Source of the DNA: Sulfuracidifex tepidarius
GTDB taxonomy: Archaea > Thermoproteota > Thermoprotei_A > Sulfolobales > Sulfolobaceae
DNA: 64,000 nucleotides
Assembly: GCF_008326425.1 (NCBI RefSeq)
Contig: NZ_AP018929.1
Span: 1,440,875-1,504,874 of the forward strand
Direction of reading: 5' to 3'
Part shown: positions 3,614 to 59,627 of the stretch, piece after piece
Position numbering within the stretch: the first letter of the stretch is position 1
Layout of the letters: each line of letters begins with the position of its first letter
Notes under the pieces: generated by a model
The model's database searches: none
What the model saw: the letters and a program-made list of their open reading frames with translations, nothing else
What the model was told of the DNA's origin: nothing
Position numbers and translations under genes: made by a program

Positions 3614-4762
3614 TTAAGATCTATCCTCTATCGGAACATAGGATTTCTCTATGTCGCCCACATAGATAGCTTTAGGCCTTATGAGCCTATTATCGTTCAG
3701 GTATTCCATCACCTGTGCAGTCCAACCTACTACCCTTGACGAGGCGAATACTGTGGGGAAAAACTCTGGTGAGAAACCTAGAGAGTAAAAGACAAGCCCA
3801 GAATAAAAGTCAACGTTAGGATATATCCCCTTCTGCCCGAGAGACCTCACAGCAATTTCCTCTATCTTTCTCGCTATTTCATACAGATTTCTATTCCCTT
3901 TAACAGAGGTTATCTTATCAGCGTAGGAACGTAAGATCAACGCTCTCGGATCGTAAGTCTTGTAAATCCTATGCCCGAATCCCATGAGCCTCTCCTTTCT
4001 AGACAACCTCTTGTAAACGTACTCTTCAACGTTATCAGGAGAGCCTATTTCAAGGAACATCTTCAATGCCTCAGAGTTCGCTGCACCGTGAAGGGGACCT
4101 TTAAGGGCTGAAATACCTCCTATTACTGAAGAATAAATATCGGAGAGAGTGGAAGCTATAACTAGACATGCGAAAGTAGACGCGTTCATTTCATGATCTG
4201 CGTGAAGTATCAGAACTACGTCCATGGTCTTCTCCTCTACCTCAGAAGGCTTCTGACCAGTCAACATGTAGAGGAAGTTAGACGCATGTGTTAAAGAGGA
4301 GTCAGGCTGTACTGGGCTCAGCCCTGCCCTGATTCTATGGAACGATGTGATAATGGTAGGTATCTTTGAAGTCAGCCTTATAGACTTTTCAAAGTTATCT
4401 GAATCACTCCTGTCAGCTGTACCCATCATGCTCACAGTAGTCCTCAATACATCCATGGGATTAGATGAAGGGTCTATCTTAGCCAAATACTCTAATATCT
4501 GGCCTGGGACTTCACGTTGCTCTGCCATCGTTTTCTTGAAGGTCTCTAACTCCCTAATGTTCGGAAGTTTATTCTTCCACAGAAGAAACGAAACTTCCTC
4601 AAAAGAGGACAGCTCTGCCAGGTCAAAGATGGAGTAACCCCTGTAAAATAACCTTCCCATCTTACCATCAATGTACGTTATTGAGGTCTCCTTTACCGCT
4701 ATGTCCTCTAGTCCCTTCCTAAGTACGTCCAATACTCTCACGTAATCTCTTGAAGGCAGCAT
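3614..4762 (-). CDS. gltA: citrate synthase
   Basis: The enzyme condenses acetyl-CoA and oxaloacetate to citrate. The 382 residues match the short archaeal citrate synthase. Visible active-site blocks are HADHEMNAS (about 187-195), LHGAANSEA with catalytic His225, GFGHRIYKTYDPRA with His264, and NVDFYSG with Asp318. The annotated ATG overlaps the end of the upstream DUF763 gene by 44 bases. A TTG ten codons further in would shorten the overlap and would match the usual archaeal N-terminus (KGLEDIAVKET) better, so the start is not settled. The gene forms a leftward cluster with the DUF763 gene and the small acidic gene. Confidence 0.95.
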   Translation of the reverse strand: MLPSRDYVRVLDVLRKGLEDIAVKETSITYIDGKMGRLFYRGYSIFDLAELSSFEEVSFLLWKNKLPNIRELETFKKTMAEQREVPGQILEYLAKIDPSSNPMDVLRTTVSMMGTADRSDSDNFEKSIRLTSKIPTIITSFHRIRAGLSPVQPDSSLTHASNFLYMLTGQKPSEVEEKTMDVVLILHADHEMNASTFACLVIASTLSDIYSSVIGGISALKGPLHGAANSEALKMFLEIGSPDNVEEYVYKRLSRKERLMGFGHRIYKTYDPRALILRSYADKITSVKGNRNLYEIARKIEEIAVRSLGQKGIYPNVDFYSGLVFYSLGFSPEFFPTVFASSRVVGWTAQVMEYLNDNRLIRPKAIYVGDIEKSYVPIEDRS

Positions 4763-5870
4763 TTTTATCTTTTTTATCTAATCTGGCTCTGTCCACCATG
4801 TTCTCTAGGGTTCGAATTACCTCAAGTGCAGCTCTTCTATTAACGGGATAAGGTACTCCATCCTTACCACCTATTGCAAAAGCATACTTGAAAGGATCGT
4901 AAGGGGTATTAACTACGTCCGAATATGATGGAGGTTCGTTGTAGATCAAGTCAGAAACCAGGAAAAGCGCTCTAGCAGTTGAGGGACCTAAACCGCTAAG
5001 CATAGCGTTGTCGAAAGAGTCGGGATTTGATTCGTAAACCCTAGATATTACCTGACCTATTCTCGTCACGTCTATGGGCTTCATGTAGATTAACTTGGCT
5101 TTAGGAGAGATAACGTACTGTGTACCTCCGTTTAACCAGAAAGTTATATCGGTATTCCCCCGCAAGATGGATATCGCTCTCTCGATCTCAGACAAGGTTT
5201 TCCTGGGGTTCTGCCTTAACAAGTCTAGGACTGTCTCTCTAGCGCCTTTAGTCTCTGGAGTAATGACATTAAAGGACAAATTATTGGGCAATCCAGCAAT
5301 TTCATGAGAAGTTAAAGTAGAAACGCGGTCTGACCAGTGATAACGTCGGGCAAATTTCGTTTCGATGTTCATCCCTTGTTGGATTATACCCCATTTCCCT
5401 TCTCTAGATACTATCAAGCTCTGATGGTAAAGTTGATGTCCATCTTGTATGGCGGTAGTATCTACCTTAGACGCTAATTTAGCGTTCCTGACTAATGAAA
5501 CCTTATCCAAGTCGTAGTCTAAACGCTCGATCTCCTCTGGTATCTTGAGAGAGTTCTTCCCCTTTCCTCCCAATATTGCTACTCCTTCCTCGGGAGGAAT
5601 TGCTTCCTTTAGAATACCCAAGGTTACGGTAGTAGATCCTGAGGAATCCCAGTCCATACCTATTAAGTTGTTTAATCCCTGAAACCAGAGAGGGTTTGAT
5701 AACCTTTCTACTACCTTGGCAGGGCCCCATTCGTCTATCATGATCCTGATCACAGCCGCAGACATCCTTTTCATTATAGGAATCAAGTAAGGAGGAACGT
5801 GTCCTTCATGTAATGGAAGGTCTGCTATTCCGTCAATTTCCATGTGGAGAGCCTTGTTGTCTCTTTTCAT
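4719..5870 (-). CDS. DUF763 family protein
   Basis: The N-terminal pattern GIADLPLHEGHVPPYL followed by helical sequence, and the middle block GKGKNSLKIPEEI, are characteristic of the DUF763 family found in archaea and some thermophilic bacteria. The biochemical function is not established. The length of 383 residues is normal for the family. The 3' end overlaps the citrate synthase reading frame by 44 bases, and the small acidic gene at 5884 lies 13 bases upstream, so the three are probably cotranscribed. Confidence 0.8.
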   Translation of the reverse strand: MKRDNKALHMEIDGIADLPLHEGHVPPYLIPIMKRMSAAVIRIMIDEWGPAKVVERLSNPLWFQGLNNLIGMDWDSSGSTTVTLGILKEAIPPEEGVAILGGKGKNSLKIPEEIERLDYDLDKVSLVRNAKLASKVDTTAIQDGHQLYHQSLIVSREGKWGIIQQGMNIETKFARRYHWSDRVSTLTSHEIAGLPNNLSFNVITPETKGARETVLDLLRQNPRKTLSEIERAISILRGNTDITFWLNGGTQYVISPKAKLIYMKPIDVTRIGQVISRVYESNPDSFDNAMLSGLGPSTARALFLVSDLIYNEPPSYSDVVNTPYDPFKYAFAIGGKDGVPYPVNRRAALEVIRTLENMVDRARLDKKDKNAAFKRLRESIGRT

Positions 5871-5883
5871 CCCTTTCTAAGCT

Positions 5884-6192
5884 TTAACCTTCCTTCCTTT
5901 CCCTATCCTTCTCGCTCCTCATTATGATGTCATCTGTCAAATCGTCTATGAGCGAATTTATCTTCTGCACGAAAGAAGGATTTAGTCTTTTCTCTGTAGT
6001 CCTCTTTAATACATTAGAGAGGGTCTGTAGAGCAATGTAACAAGCAATCGTGTCATCGTCGCTTTTCCCCGTATCCTGTATGTATTTGTCCATATATTCA
6101 GTGAAATATCCCATTATCATGTCCATTAATTTGCTATCATCGTTATCTTTACCATCCTCCTTTAGACCCTTACCGTCTGTCCCTTCTGTCAT
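5884..6192 (-). CDS. small acidic helical protein, unknown
   Basis: This 102-residue protein has a disordered, Asp/Glu/Lys-rich N-terminus (about 1-22) and then amphipathic helices (LMDMIMGYFTEYMDKYI and SFVQKINSLIDDLTDDI). No family is recognised. It is the first gene of the leftward cluster with DUF763 and citrate synthase, only 13 bases upstream of the DUF763 start. The tight spacing supports that it is real and functionally linked to DUF763. Confidence 0.6.
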   Translation of the reverse strand: MTEGTDGKGLKEDGKDNDDSKLMDMIMGYFTEYMDKYIQDTGKSDDDTIACYIALQTLSNVLKRTTEKRLNPSFVQKINSLIDDLTDDIIMRSEKDRERKEG

Positions 6193-6960
6193 GTTTCTAA
6201 GATAGAGCTTACTATATTTTAAAAGTAGAGGAAATCAGTGTTATTTCATCAAATTATTTCACATGAAAGATATAATATTCCCTCTTTCAGGAGGAGTGAT
6301 ATAGAGAAAAAGTAATAAGAAGATCTTGAAACGTGGCGTGTTTTAACAGTTTGAGATAAACATATAGAGAACATCTACAAGAGGAAAAAAGGAATCTGAA
6401 TTTTGTCATTAGGTGAAGGAGACATGCGTAGAGTCCCTACACGTCGGTGTCACTATTTTTATGACTCTACTAAAACAAGTCGACTTCTTCTACACCATCT
6501 CTATATTTGGTTCATTCACGTCTCCTTTGCAAATTCAGTTTATTTATTGAATAGAGTGAATTTAATTGAACGCTCTCGTATAGACTGGGTAAGAACTCAC
6601 GCTTGACAATTCTCTTTATTTGATCTATTTTTAGCATAATTACAATTCACAATGGAAATCTGAATCGCCCCTATATTTCCCCCTTCCTTAGAAATTGCAT
6701 CATTTCTAGTAAAATTAGTGAGATATCACTGATTGTCGGAAGCAGAAGTTTGTTTTGACCATTCCTGTTTCTCGTCTTCCTAGTCTTGCTATTCGCTTTC
6801 TATTATTTCGAATGCTTTTGACGTTAATAATTGGATTTATTTAACGTCTTCGCGTGAGACCTTGATACCACGTGATTTATTGAATTTGTCTTAAAGCTGA
6901 GGATTCTTTGCCTTCTCGTTTCAGCTATGAGCTTTTTGACGGAAAAATTTGACATGTTAC
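6193..6960. other. gene-poor scar next to the integrase remnant
   Basis: No convincing gene is visible in this stretch of about 770 bases. It is AT-rich, carries one copy of a dispersed repeat (6500-6676), and ends at the promoter of the int(N) fossil. An SSV-type element integrated in tRNA-Pro would have occupied this side of the tRNA, so the stretch may be what is left after the element was deleted (inference). Confidence 0.5.
6500..6676 (+). repeat. dispersed repeat, copy A
   Basis: About 175 bases align over their whole length with 30154-30328, with only small gaps and roughly three quarters of positions identical by eye. The best blocks are ATTCAGTTTATTTA, ACGCTCTCGTAT-like, ATCTATTTTTA and CATAATTACAATT. 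In one frame both copies give nearly the same peptide (YIW-IH-S-ANSVYL with conservative changes), so the repeat may descend from coding sequence of a mobile element. No terminal inverted repeats are obvious. Confidence 0.7.
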
Positions 6961-6966
6961 CAACTC

Positions 6967-6975
6967 TTATAAACG
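6967..6975 (+). promoter_or_regulatory. TATA box of the int(N) fossil
   Basis: CTTATAAAC-type TATA element centred about 36 bases before the ATG of the integrase fragment. This is compatible with a short leader that contains the upstream GTG. Confidence 0.5.
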
Positions 6976-7006
6976 TTTTTTAGCAATCATAATACTAGGC
7001 GTGAAA

Positions 7007-7276
7007 ATGACGAGAGATAAGACGCGGTATAAATATGGCGACATAATTTTACGTGAGAGAAAAGGTCGGTATTACGTTTACAAGCTAGAGTATGAGGAAG
7101 GTAACGCAAGGGAACATTACGTAGGACCTTTAGCCGACGTGGTGAAATCATACGAAGAATTAAAGAGGAGTGGGGGCGTGGGGGTATCCCCCACAAGCCG
7201 CGGCCGGGATTTGGACCCGGGACCTCTGCCTTACCAGGGCAGCGCTCTAGCCAGGCTGAGCTACCACGGCAAGTAG
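7007..7276 (+). pseudogene. int(N): N-terminal fragment of an SSV-type integrase overlapping tRNA-Pro
   Basis: The sequence [12 protein letters not shown]...[16 protein letters not shown]...YVGPLADVV is nearly identical to the N-terminus of the fusellovirus SSV1 tyrosine recombinase as remembered from the family. After about 55 residues the frame runs into the antisense strand of the tRNA-Pro gene and stops just beyond it. The catalytic C-terminal half (R..HxxR..Y) is absent. SSV-type integrases carry attP inside their own gene, so integration splits them into int(N) and int(C), with int(N) abutting the tRNA. This is therefore a fossil of a past integration event. No int(C) or second partial tRNA-Pro copy is seen in the window. 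Confidence 0.9.
7197..7270 (-). tRNA. tRNA-Pro (anticodon TGG)
   Basis: On the minus strand a full cloverleaf can be drawn: acceptor GCCGTGG/CCGCGGC, D arm GCTC..GAGC, anticodon stem CTGCC/GGCAG with loop CTGGTAA (anticodon TGG), and T arm CCGGG/CCCGG with loop TCCAAAT. The length is 74 bases with no intron and no encoded CCA. Its 3' half is the attachment site used by the element that left the int(N) fragment. Confidence 0.97.
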
Positions 7277-7303: not shown

Positions 7304-7462
7304 AACTCTCCCATGTGACTAACTCTTCAGATTTCTGTTCTCCTAACGAAAGAGAACGTTTAACCTAAACTTGCTGATTAGAACGTGTTGTCATTTTAAA
7401 CAAAAGATTGTAAACCGTCTATGAGTTGAAGTTTAAATTATATCGATTTGATTCATGAATTA

Positions 7463-7678
7463 ATGGTCAAATATTGTCCAATTTGTGGTCATCCAAATTG
7501 CGATTCTAACGAAGTCTGTATGAGTTGCGGTTTCAACTTCAAAGCCTCACCTTTCATAAAGGGGACTCATGAGAAGACACAGAAGGAAAGGCCTGATAAA
7601 TTCACACCGAAGGATTTCATAGCTATCTTAATTGTAATAATATCTATCATATTGTTGTTCCTTTTTTACGATATATGA
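7463..7678 (+). CDS. zinc-ribbon protein with C-terminal membrane helix
   Basis: A 71-residue protein. An N-terminal zinc ribbon (CPICGHPNC...CMSCGF) is followed by a charged linker and a hydrophobic helix at about residues 48-70. It is probably a membrane-tethered zinc-ribbon protein of unknown role. The ATG at 7463 is preferred over an upstream TTG because a TATA-like TTTAAATTATAT lies about 27 bases before it, giving a leaderless mRNA. It is convergent with the HtrA-like gene, and the 3' ends overlap by 13 bases. Confidence 0.7.
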   Translation: MVKYCPICGHPNCDSNEVCMSCGFNFKASPFIKGTHEKTQKERPDKFTPKDFIAILIVIISIILLFLFYDI

Positions 7679-8592
7679 TCAAGCCTTCTTCCCTCTATTT
7701 CCAGTTTCGCAGAATATTTCTTCTTCTCTCTTAGAACTACTAGATTTAGAACTCCTGGAGATACTCTTTCTGACACGTTCCATAAATCGAGAGTACTTCG
7801 AAGAGGCACTCCATTGGCTGAAAGAATAACGTCACCTACAAGAAGTCCTGCTCTCTGTGCTGGACTGTCATTCAAAATGCTCTGTATCATGAGACCATAA
7901 TCAACGTCGAGAGAAAGGTATTTCCCTATGACTCTATTTATTACTCTAATTTTATCTATTCCAGTGAAAGGAGCTAAGTACATTCCGTTTTTATATACGT
8001 TAAACAGAAAGCTCTGAAGCGACCTAGCGGGAACTAGGAAATTGATGTTCTCAGACTTATCGAGATGACTTTGGGCTACCCCTACCACTTGCCCGTTCAT
8101 ATTGACTACCGGACCTCCACTATTCCCTGGGTTTACAGCAGCGTCCGTCTGATAGACGTACATGTTGTAACCAAAGGGAGACCTTATCTCTCTGTTTACC
8201 GAACTTATAATGCCGAACGATACGGTTAGGTCTCCCAAGTCGAAGAGGAAAGGGCTCCCTAGAACTATGACGAAATCTCCTATTCTCACGTTTTCTGAAA
8301 CCTTCAGCGGAGGAATTTCAACATCAGCCTCGATGAGGGCTAAGTCGTTTATTGGGTTCACATGAATCACTCTTCCCTTCTTTGAAATAGTGTCCTTTGT
8401 TAGGATCTGTACTTCTTTCGTGCCTTCCACTACGTGAAGATTAGTTATTATTCGACCCTTCGAAACGCAGAAACCCGATCCTCCCTGAATTACCCTACCC
8501 TGTACATAGTCATTGATGGAGAACGGTCTCGAAATAATGGTAACCACAGACTGCGAAACGGTTTCTATTAAATCGTTGAGGCTTTTCATCAT
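7666..8592 (-). CDS. HtrA/DegP-like serine protease with PDZ domain, no signal peptide
   Basis: A trypsin-like protease domain with an intact triad: His53 (ITNLHVVEG), Asp83 (NDLAL) and Ser158 (PGNSGGP). A PDZ domain covers about residues 215-300 (GLMIQSILNDSPAQRAGLLVGDVIL). HtrA proteins act in protein quality control. Bacterial members are normally exported, but this one begins MMKSLNDLIETVSQSVV with neither signal peptide nor membrane helix, which suggests action in the cytoplasm. It is 308 residues long with a single PDZ. Confidence 0.9.
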   Translation of the reverse strand: MMKSLNDLIETVSQSVVTIISRPFSINDYVQGRVIQGGSGFCVSKGRIITNLHVVEGTKEVQILTKDTISKKGRVIHVNPINDLALIEADVEIPPLKVSENVRIGDFVIVLGSPFLFDLGDLTVSFGIISSVNREIRSPFGYNMYVYQTDAAVNPGNSGGPVVNMNGQVVGVAQSHLDKSENINFLVPARSLQSFLFNVYKNGMYLAPFTGIDKIRVINRVIGKYLSLDVDYGLMIQSILNDSPAQRAGLLVGDVILSANGVPLRSTLDLWNVSERVSPGVLNLVVLREKKKYSAKLEIEGRRLDHIS

Positions 8593-30153: not shown

Positions 30154-30328
30154 ATATATATGGGTAATTCACGCCTCCCTTGCTAATTCAGTTTATTTAT
30201 CTATATTAAATAAATTTAATTAAACGTTCTCATATGAACTATATAAGGGTTCACGCTAAACATTTTCCTTTATTCAATCTATTTTTACCATAATTACAAT
30301 TTGCAATGATGATCTGGATCGCTCTATA
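30154..30328 (+). repeat. dispersed repeat, copy B
   Basis: Same orientation and nearly the same length as 6500-6676. Best conserved blocks: CTAATTCAGTTTATTTA, AATTTAATTAAACGTTCTCATAT, GTTCACGCT and ATCTATTTTTACCATAATTACAATT. It lies between the MFS gene and the UppP gene without a neighbouring tRNA or transposase. Confidence 0.7.
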
Positions 30329-30424
30329 TAGATACAATAATAATATATAGGTAACCATACTATTATATTATTTATATAGACTTTATTTGAAAAATTTTAA
30401 AAATTAGACTGACGTAGAGACCGT

Positions 30425-59492: not shown

Positions 59493-59530
59493 AAAAATGT
59501 AACTTTCTTTCAATTCAAGCGAAAAATGGT

Positions 59531-59627
59531 GCCGCGGCCGGGATTTGAACCCGGGTCATGGGCTCGAGAGGCCCGCATACTCTCGGTGCATGCCACGACA
59601 TGCTTGACCGGACTATACTACCGCGGC
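59531..59627 (-). tRNA. tRNA-Glu (anticodon CTC) with a non-canonical intron
   Basis: Acceptor GCCGCGG/CCGCGGC, T arm CCGGG/CCCGG with loop TTCAAAT, and anticodon stem-loop GGGC-CTCTCGA-GCCC (anticodon CTC). The gene is 97 bases long. The excess is a 23-base insertion (about 59576-59598) at the end of the D arm, before the anticodon stem. Without it a normal 74-base tRNA-Glu remains. The intron ends are ambiguous by a few bases because ATG repeats at both junctions. Confidence 0.93.

Follow-up and report, generated by a model that had tools for sequence, protein, structure and literature searches.

How does an open reading frame come to run straight into a tRNA gene on the opposite strand, and is what remains there a gene or a relic? 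The question arises in a 64,000-nucleotide stretch of the Sulfuracidifex tepidarius chromosome (hereafter the window), where an open frame on the forward strand, starting at 7001 or 7007, ends at 7276. Very probably the frame contains int(N), the N-terminal relic of an SSV-type insertion at tRNA-Thr(GGT) whose remainder has been lost, and is one of a set of such stumps that are refreshed and otherwise decay.

The first 63 or so codons of the 7007-7276 frame match PF07935 (E 1.2e-29; 102.8 bits, against a cut-off of 22), and residues 1-62 are 74% identical to SSV1 D-335. The preliminary description had recognised an SSV1-like integrase N-terminus here, and these figures bear it out: similarity to fusellovirus integrases is present when the 7007-7196 region is aligned with them, and viral homologues do exist. 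As judged by sequence comparison, homology to the SSV integrases is far above chance and the fragment at 7007-7195 (forward strand, with intact ATG and frame) is the int(N) part of an SSV-type integrase. Beyond this the frame passes through the antisense tRNA (7196-7276, forward strand) until it is closed by a TAG at 7274-7276. When employed as a query, the read-through tail matches tRNA-Thr genes in unrelated bacteria and is therefore not integrase sequence. Because the last 25 residues of the full 89-residue frame are antisense tRNA, and drew those same bacterial genes, the contig search with the full frame was mostly useless, only its Sulfolobaceae matches being informative. In the linker that joins int(N) to the tRNA there is a near-palindrome, GTGGGGGTATCCCCCAC, at 7178-7194; near-palindromes of this kind, with runs of G and C, are seen at the same place in most chromosomal stumps and in SSV1 and pSSVi.

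The tRNA itself, named Pro(TGG) in the preliminary description, was misidentified. ARAGORN places tRNA-Thr(GGT) at 7196-7270 on the reverse strand and rules out tRNA-Pro(TGG), the anticodon loop being CTGGTAA with GGT as its middle three bases. The direct fusion of the integrase fragment to an antisense tRNA, claimed at the same time, is confirmed: int(N) stops where tRNA-Thr(GGT), encoded on the reverse strand, has its 3' end, and the attachment site is the 3' half of this tRNA, as for an integrase gene interrupted at its tRNA att site. Displaced copies of tRNA-Thr positions 31-74 are present in genomes G152 and G125 and, together with a copy in G146, suggest that the att core comprises tRNA positions 29/31-74.

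Upstream, similarity to the mobile elements extends well beyond the coding sequence. A DNA match of 76% to both SSV1 and the plasmid pSSVi covers 6898-7226, beginning some 109 bp before the ATG and reaching into the tRNA. Since the module is common to a virus and a plasmid, the donor could be either. The upstream part of the module (6898-7006, forward strand) includes a TATA-like box, CTTATAAACG, at 6966-6975, lying within a degenerate inverted repeat which, in an alignment of relatives, reads GTTGCCAA..TTGGCAAC. The 110 bp or so before int(N) would be a virus-type promoter region, and int(N) has indeed been kept with its TATA-like box and intact ATG, as first described. A scan of the window for promoters and terminators used a bacterial consensus and, the host being an archaeon, was uninformative. 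Some 100 bp ahead of the int start (6892-6910, approximately, in the window) lies a short motif resembling CTGAGGAWTC, which recurs upstream of several stumps and is found even between diverged integrase types.

What, then, became of the rest of the element? The preliminary description had int(C) and the second att copy missing from the window. No second att copy is present there, and the absence extends to the whole genome (2,560,765 bp in one contig), in which no SSV1-type int(C) was found at E 1e-6 and no partial copy of tRNA-Thr at E 1e-10. With neither an SSV1-type int(C) nor a second tRNA-Thr half anywhere in the 2.56 Mb, the element is gone and, since there is no matching int(C) with its catalytic domain, the fragment is a remnant and not an integrase. 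For int(C) sequences more divergent than the SSV1 type, the genome was searched with one profile, which revealed a single int(C)-like part next to a tRNA half, a divergent one at 801.4-802.3 kb (Ala-CGC). What the tRNA-Thr locus was like before the loss is, to judge from its layout, shown by G146, where the same tRNA and int(N) are followed about 13 kb further on by int(C) and then by a 46-nt copy of tRNA positions 29-74. The tRNA-Thr(GGT) locus of G152 (G152:C1:174500-194000) has int(N), att and int(C) adjacent, but with a frameshift in the run of Gs that precedes att; positions 1-46 of tRNA-Thr are present once more about 4.5 kb from the complete tRNA. This arrangement bears what look like signs of repeated insertion at one site.

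On the element side of the module, around 700 bp of 34% G+C (6193-6897) separate it from a host gene ending at 6192. DNA comparison found no residual viral or plasmid sequence in this interval, and there is no viral match beyond the int module of the kind expected from a fusellovirus provirus, with viral genes between two att copies. The interval had been described as a 770-base gene-poor scar; gene-poor it is, but the description is incomplete, for part of it is a 162-bp MITE-like repeat (6509-6670) with ends GGTTCATTCA and TGAATCGCCC. The repeat is short, has terminal inverted repeats and no transposase, is flanked by an 8-bp target duplication, CTATATTT, at 6501-6508 and 6671-6678, and occurs in about 27 copies in the genome, 22 of which were aligned. 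A second copy of this MITE-like family, whose members are about 160 bp long with ends near GGGCGATTCA and TGAATCGCCC and an 8-bp duplication, lies in the window at 30155-30329 (forward strand).

The host genes to either side allow the same locus to be recognised in G066, a genome of the same genus. On one side these are a 102-residue protein gene (5884-6192, reverse strand; 57% identity to G066), followed by genes whose translations read as MmgE/PrpD-like and citrate synthase (4719-5870 and 3614-4762), an order kept in G066. On the other they are a zinc-ribbon ORF (7448-7678, forward strand) and a trypsin/PDZ protease (7666-8592, reverse strand), both beside the tRNA in G066 too. A comparison of the tRNA locus with a related genome, proposed at the outset, is thus available: G066 keeps an identical tRNA and both flanking gene blocks, without int(N). 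It does not, however, provide a clean empty site, since 2.9 kb of other DNA, with an unrelated 554-residue oxidoreductase-like ORF, lie between the same flanks, and the locus is therefore a variable insertion site. This counts against our explanation to a degree, as does the intact state of frame, start and TATA-like box, which could mean selection.

From the fusion, its homology and its orientation, all read directly in the DNA, we infer an insertion, a loss and the possible routes of that loss. An SSV-type virus or plasmid would have used its own integrase to enter tRNA-Thr(GGT) in the 3' half of the gene. Since att lies inside the integrase gene, insertion splits that gene; int(N) and its promoter would have stayed fused to the restored tRNA, while int(C) came to lie at the other end of the element. 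The whole remainder, with int(C) and the displaced half of the tRNA, would later have disappeared, leaving int(N) and about 110 bp, either by deletion or because the int(N) modules of an older and a newer insertion underwent homologous recombination. Thereafter, stumps at tRNA genes may be renewed by new insertions or exchanges, and would otherwise decay without detectable constraint. Loss by internal deletion was the original proposal; the int(N) relic and the loss hold, but deletion becomes one of two routes, since no trace of the element can be recognised past the upstream module of about 110 bp, the MITE in the scar came later, and comparisons at other tRNAs indicate that int(N) has been exchanged at the module edge.

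Among stumps of its kind the one in the window is ordinary. A genome-wide search at the curated cut-off yields 17 PF07935 stretches at separate places, 14 of which adjoin a complete tRNA (Thr; Val GAC, TAC and CAC; Ser; His; Gly; Arg; Phe; Ala GGC, CGC and TGC; Gln; Asn). The other three, at 801, 868 and 1272 kb, adjoin only a tRNA 3' half of some 45 nt. The half at 1272.9 kb matches the 3' part of the tRNA-Glu at 59527-59599 in the window and that at 868.2 kb matches tRNA-His, each hundreds of kb away from the tRNA gene that it resembles. By reading, about 10 of the 17 stumps are open with a start codon, the rest being frameshifted, stopped or without a start. Other Sulfolobaceae have from 0 to 17 PF07935 matches each (E 0.01) and 116 int(N) stretches were read in 14 genomes of the family. 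For 101 of these the endpoint falls from -40 to +120 nt of where a tRNA on the other strand has its 3' end; the remaining 15 probably adjoin tRNA halves or intron-containing tRNAs missed by the finder. In S. islandicus, solitary intN fragments have been reported at Ala-GGC, Pro-GGG and Glu-TTC (PMC3718332), as has a degenerate SSV-like remnant at tRNA-Thr(GGT) (PMC3718332, Table 5), so that this kind of relic is already known.

What looks new is that stumps appear to turn over at their tRNA loci. At Val-GAC, comparison of G078 with G125 in 25-nt windows gives identities of 92-100% as far as the promoter, 36-84% within int(N) and again 92-100% in the tRNA, the left edge of the replaced tract falling inside the promoter inverted repeat. 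At Pro-TGG, G114 and G125 are 96% identical in the far flank and 82% in int(N). At two orthologous tRNA loci of sister species, flank identities are 95-98% against 74-82% for int(N). The turnover could reflect the loss of a new insertion when two int(N) modules recombined, or the conversion of one stump by another, both of which fit the data. Best-hit enrichment within genomes is clear among the stumps of genera g5 and g6 and absent in g4; it was not taken as proof of exchange, because shared virus lineages may explain it.

The stump in the window also has a mosaic character. At sites variable among eight modules, its agreement with the Val-GAC stump rises from 34% in the first half to 85% in the second (maximum chi-square p 0.0005, four comparisons), and falls from 64% to 49% with the Gly stump and from 59% to 38% with SSV1. 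Run-length tests for mosaicism, with few permutations and many pairs, are supportive only. Such a mosaic could already have formed in a virus that had yet to insert.

These comparisons bear on a rival explanation in which orphan int(N) modules serve as recombination handles: a newcomer that inserts at a stump-bearing tRNA comes to lie between two int(N) modules, loops out through homologous recombination of the two and leaves its own int(N) on the old flank, so that stumps yield new stumps without random internal deletion. The steps in identity at Val-GAC with their edge in the promoter repeat, the contrast between far flank and int(N) at Pro-TGG, the mosaic in the window and the near or complete absence, in stumps, of element DNA outside the module all favour it. 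Against this, ectopic gene conversion looks alike (over 168 nt, the Val-GAC stump of G078 shares 99% identity with that genome's own Gly-CCC stump, in different flanks), viral integrases may recombine prior to insertion, and the exchanges were seen at other tRNA loci and not at that in the window. We hold this rival tentatively, as possible but somewhat improbable.

A different role for stumps would be the restoration of reversibility: an old, intact int(N), its att and a newly arrived int(C) would together make up an entire chimeric integrase gene, promoter included, rendering the newcomer excisable. The required order, int(N)-att-int(C), is encountered at least six times (in G136; in G152 at tRNA-Thr; in G042 at Gln-TTG; in G150; in G090; and at 801.2-802.3 kb, Ala-CGC, in the S. 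tepidarius genome), and G032 has an older Gln-TTG stump without the newer insertion. All six junctions, however, are out of frame or decayed, and the 24 SSV-type int(C) in 31 genomes include no full-length gene that is intact. Complete chimeric integrases rebuilt next to stumps were rejected as a candidate, the geometry having been met with six times and an intact frame never. Decay at every junction would fit a survivor effect, in-frame junctions having let their elements leave, with numbers too small for this to be claimed. We consider a role in reversibility improbable.

Constraint was assessed in stumps that are likely to be inherited, namely those at the same tRNA in sister species in which the sequence 150-390 bp upstream is conserved, orthology thus being judged on short flanks. 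Five such pairs, at other tRNAs, gave a pooled pS of 0.189 and pN of 0.142 (Fisher p 0.15, a low-power test), and four of the five contain frameshift gaps and/or stops. Within the power of this test, inherited stumps seem close to neutral decay, with no significant constraint, and orthologous pairs lend no support to selection having preserved int(N) as a functional gene. Nor do such sequence comparisons support a working role for the 63-residue peptide, and the open frame in the window more likely reflects recent arrival or refresh than function. It is very unlikely that int(N) is a domesticated host gene whose small protein is made and useful, for example by interfering with incoming integrases through its multimerisation domain: ATG, TATA-like box and frame are intact, as are the frames of about 10 of the 17 stumps, Int(N) of SSV integrases does mediate multimerisation (PMC8371274) and S. 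solfataricus P2 does transcribe the int(N) of pXQ1 and XQ2 (PMC8371274), but inherited stumps decay, their pooled pN/pS is not significantly below 1, G066 has no stump at the same tRNA, and insertion alone produces the tRNA fusion.

Returning to the stump as a relic that is refreshed or decays, a broader proposal is that the int(N)-att modules standing without an element at dozens of tRNA genes in archaea might constitute a recombining reservoir, exchanged among tRNA loci or with incoming viruses, acting as homology handles through which new insertions are lost and supplying N-termini and att sites with which suicidal integrases change target; this is conceivable, though we think it doubtful. 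The persistence and target change of gene-breaking suicidal integrases have been discussed as a paradox (PMC8371274). If stumps are exchanged in place, as the two sister-species comparisons suggest, they would be a permanent stock of int(N) and att sequence available for recombination and would also record past insertions for each tRNA.

The locus in the window shares much with SSV1, pSSVi and pXQ1/XQ2, whose integrases are of class I, 'suicidal' (PMC8371274): a PF07935 N-terminus, an att lying both in the gene and in a tRNA 3' half, an antisense int(N)-tRNA fusion and the same upstream module. It differs from them in having no int(C), displaced tRNA half or element genes. The intN fragments and Thr remnant of S. 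islandicus (PMC3718332), reported in several strains, are relics of the same kind, and their target includes the same tRNA, but that Thr remnant retains a few virus-like genes whereas the window has int(N) alone, and the 17 stumps found here exceed the intN fragments tabulated for S. islandicus. A precedent for exchange is the pT26-2/TKV model, in which chimeric suicidal integrases arise through homologous recombination between integrated elements (PMC8371274); that model involves two resident elements in inverted orientation, whereas here it is element-free stumps that appear to have been exchanged.
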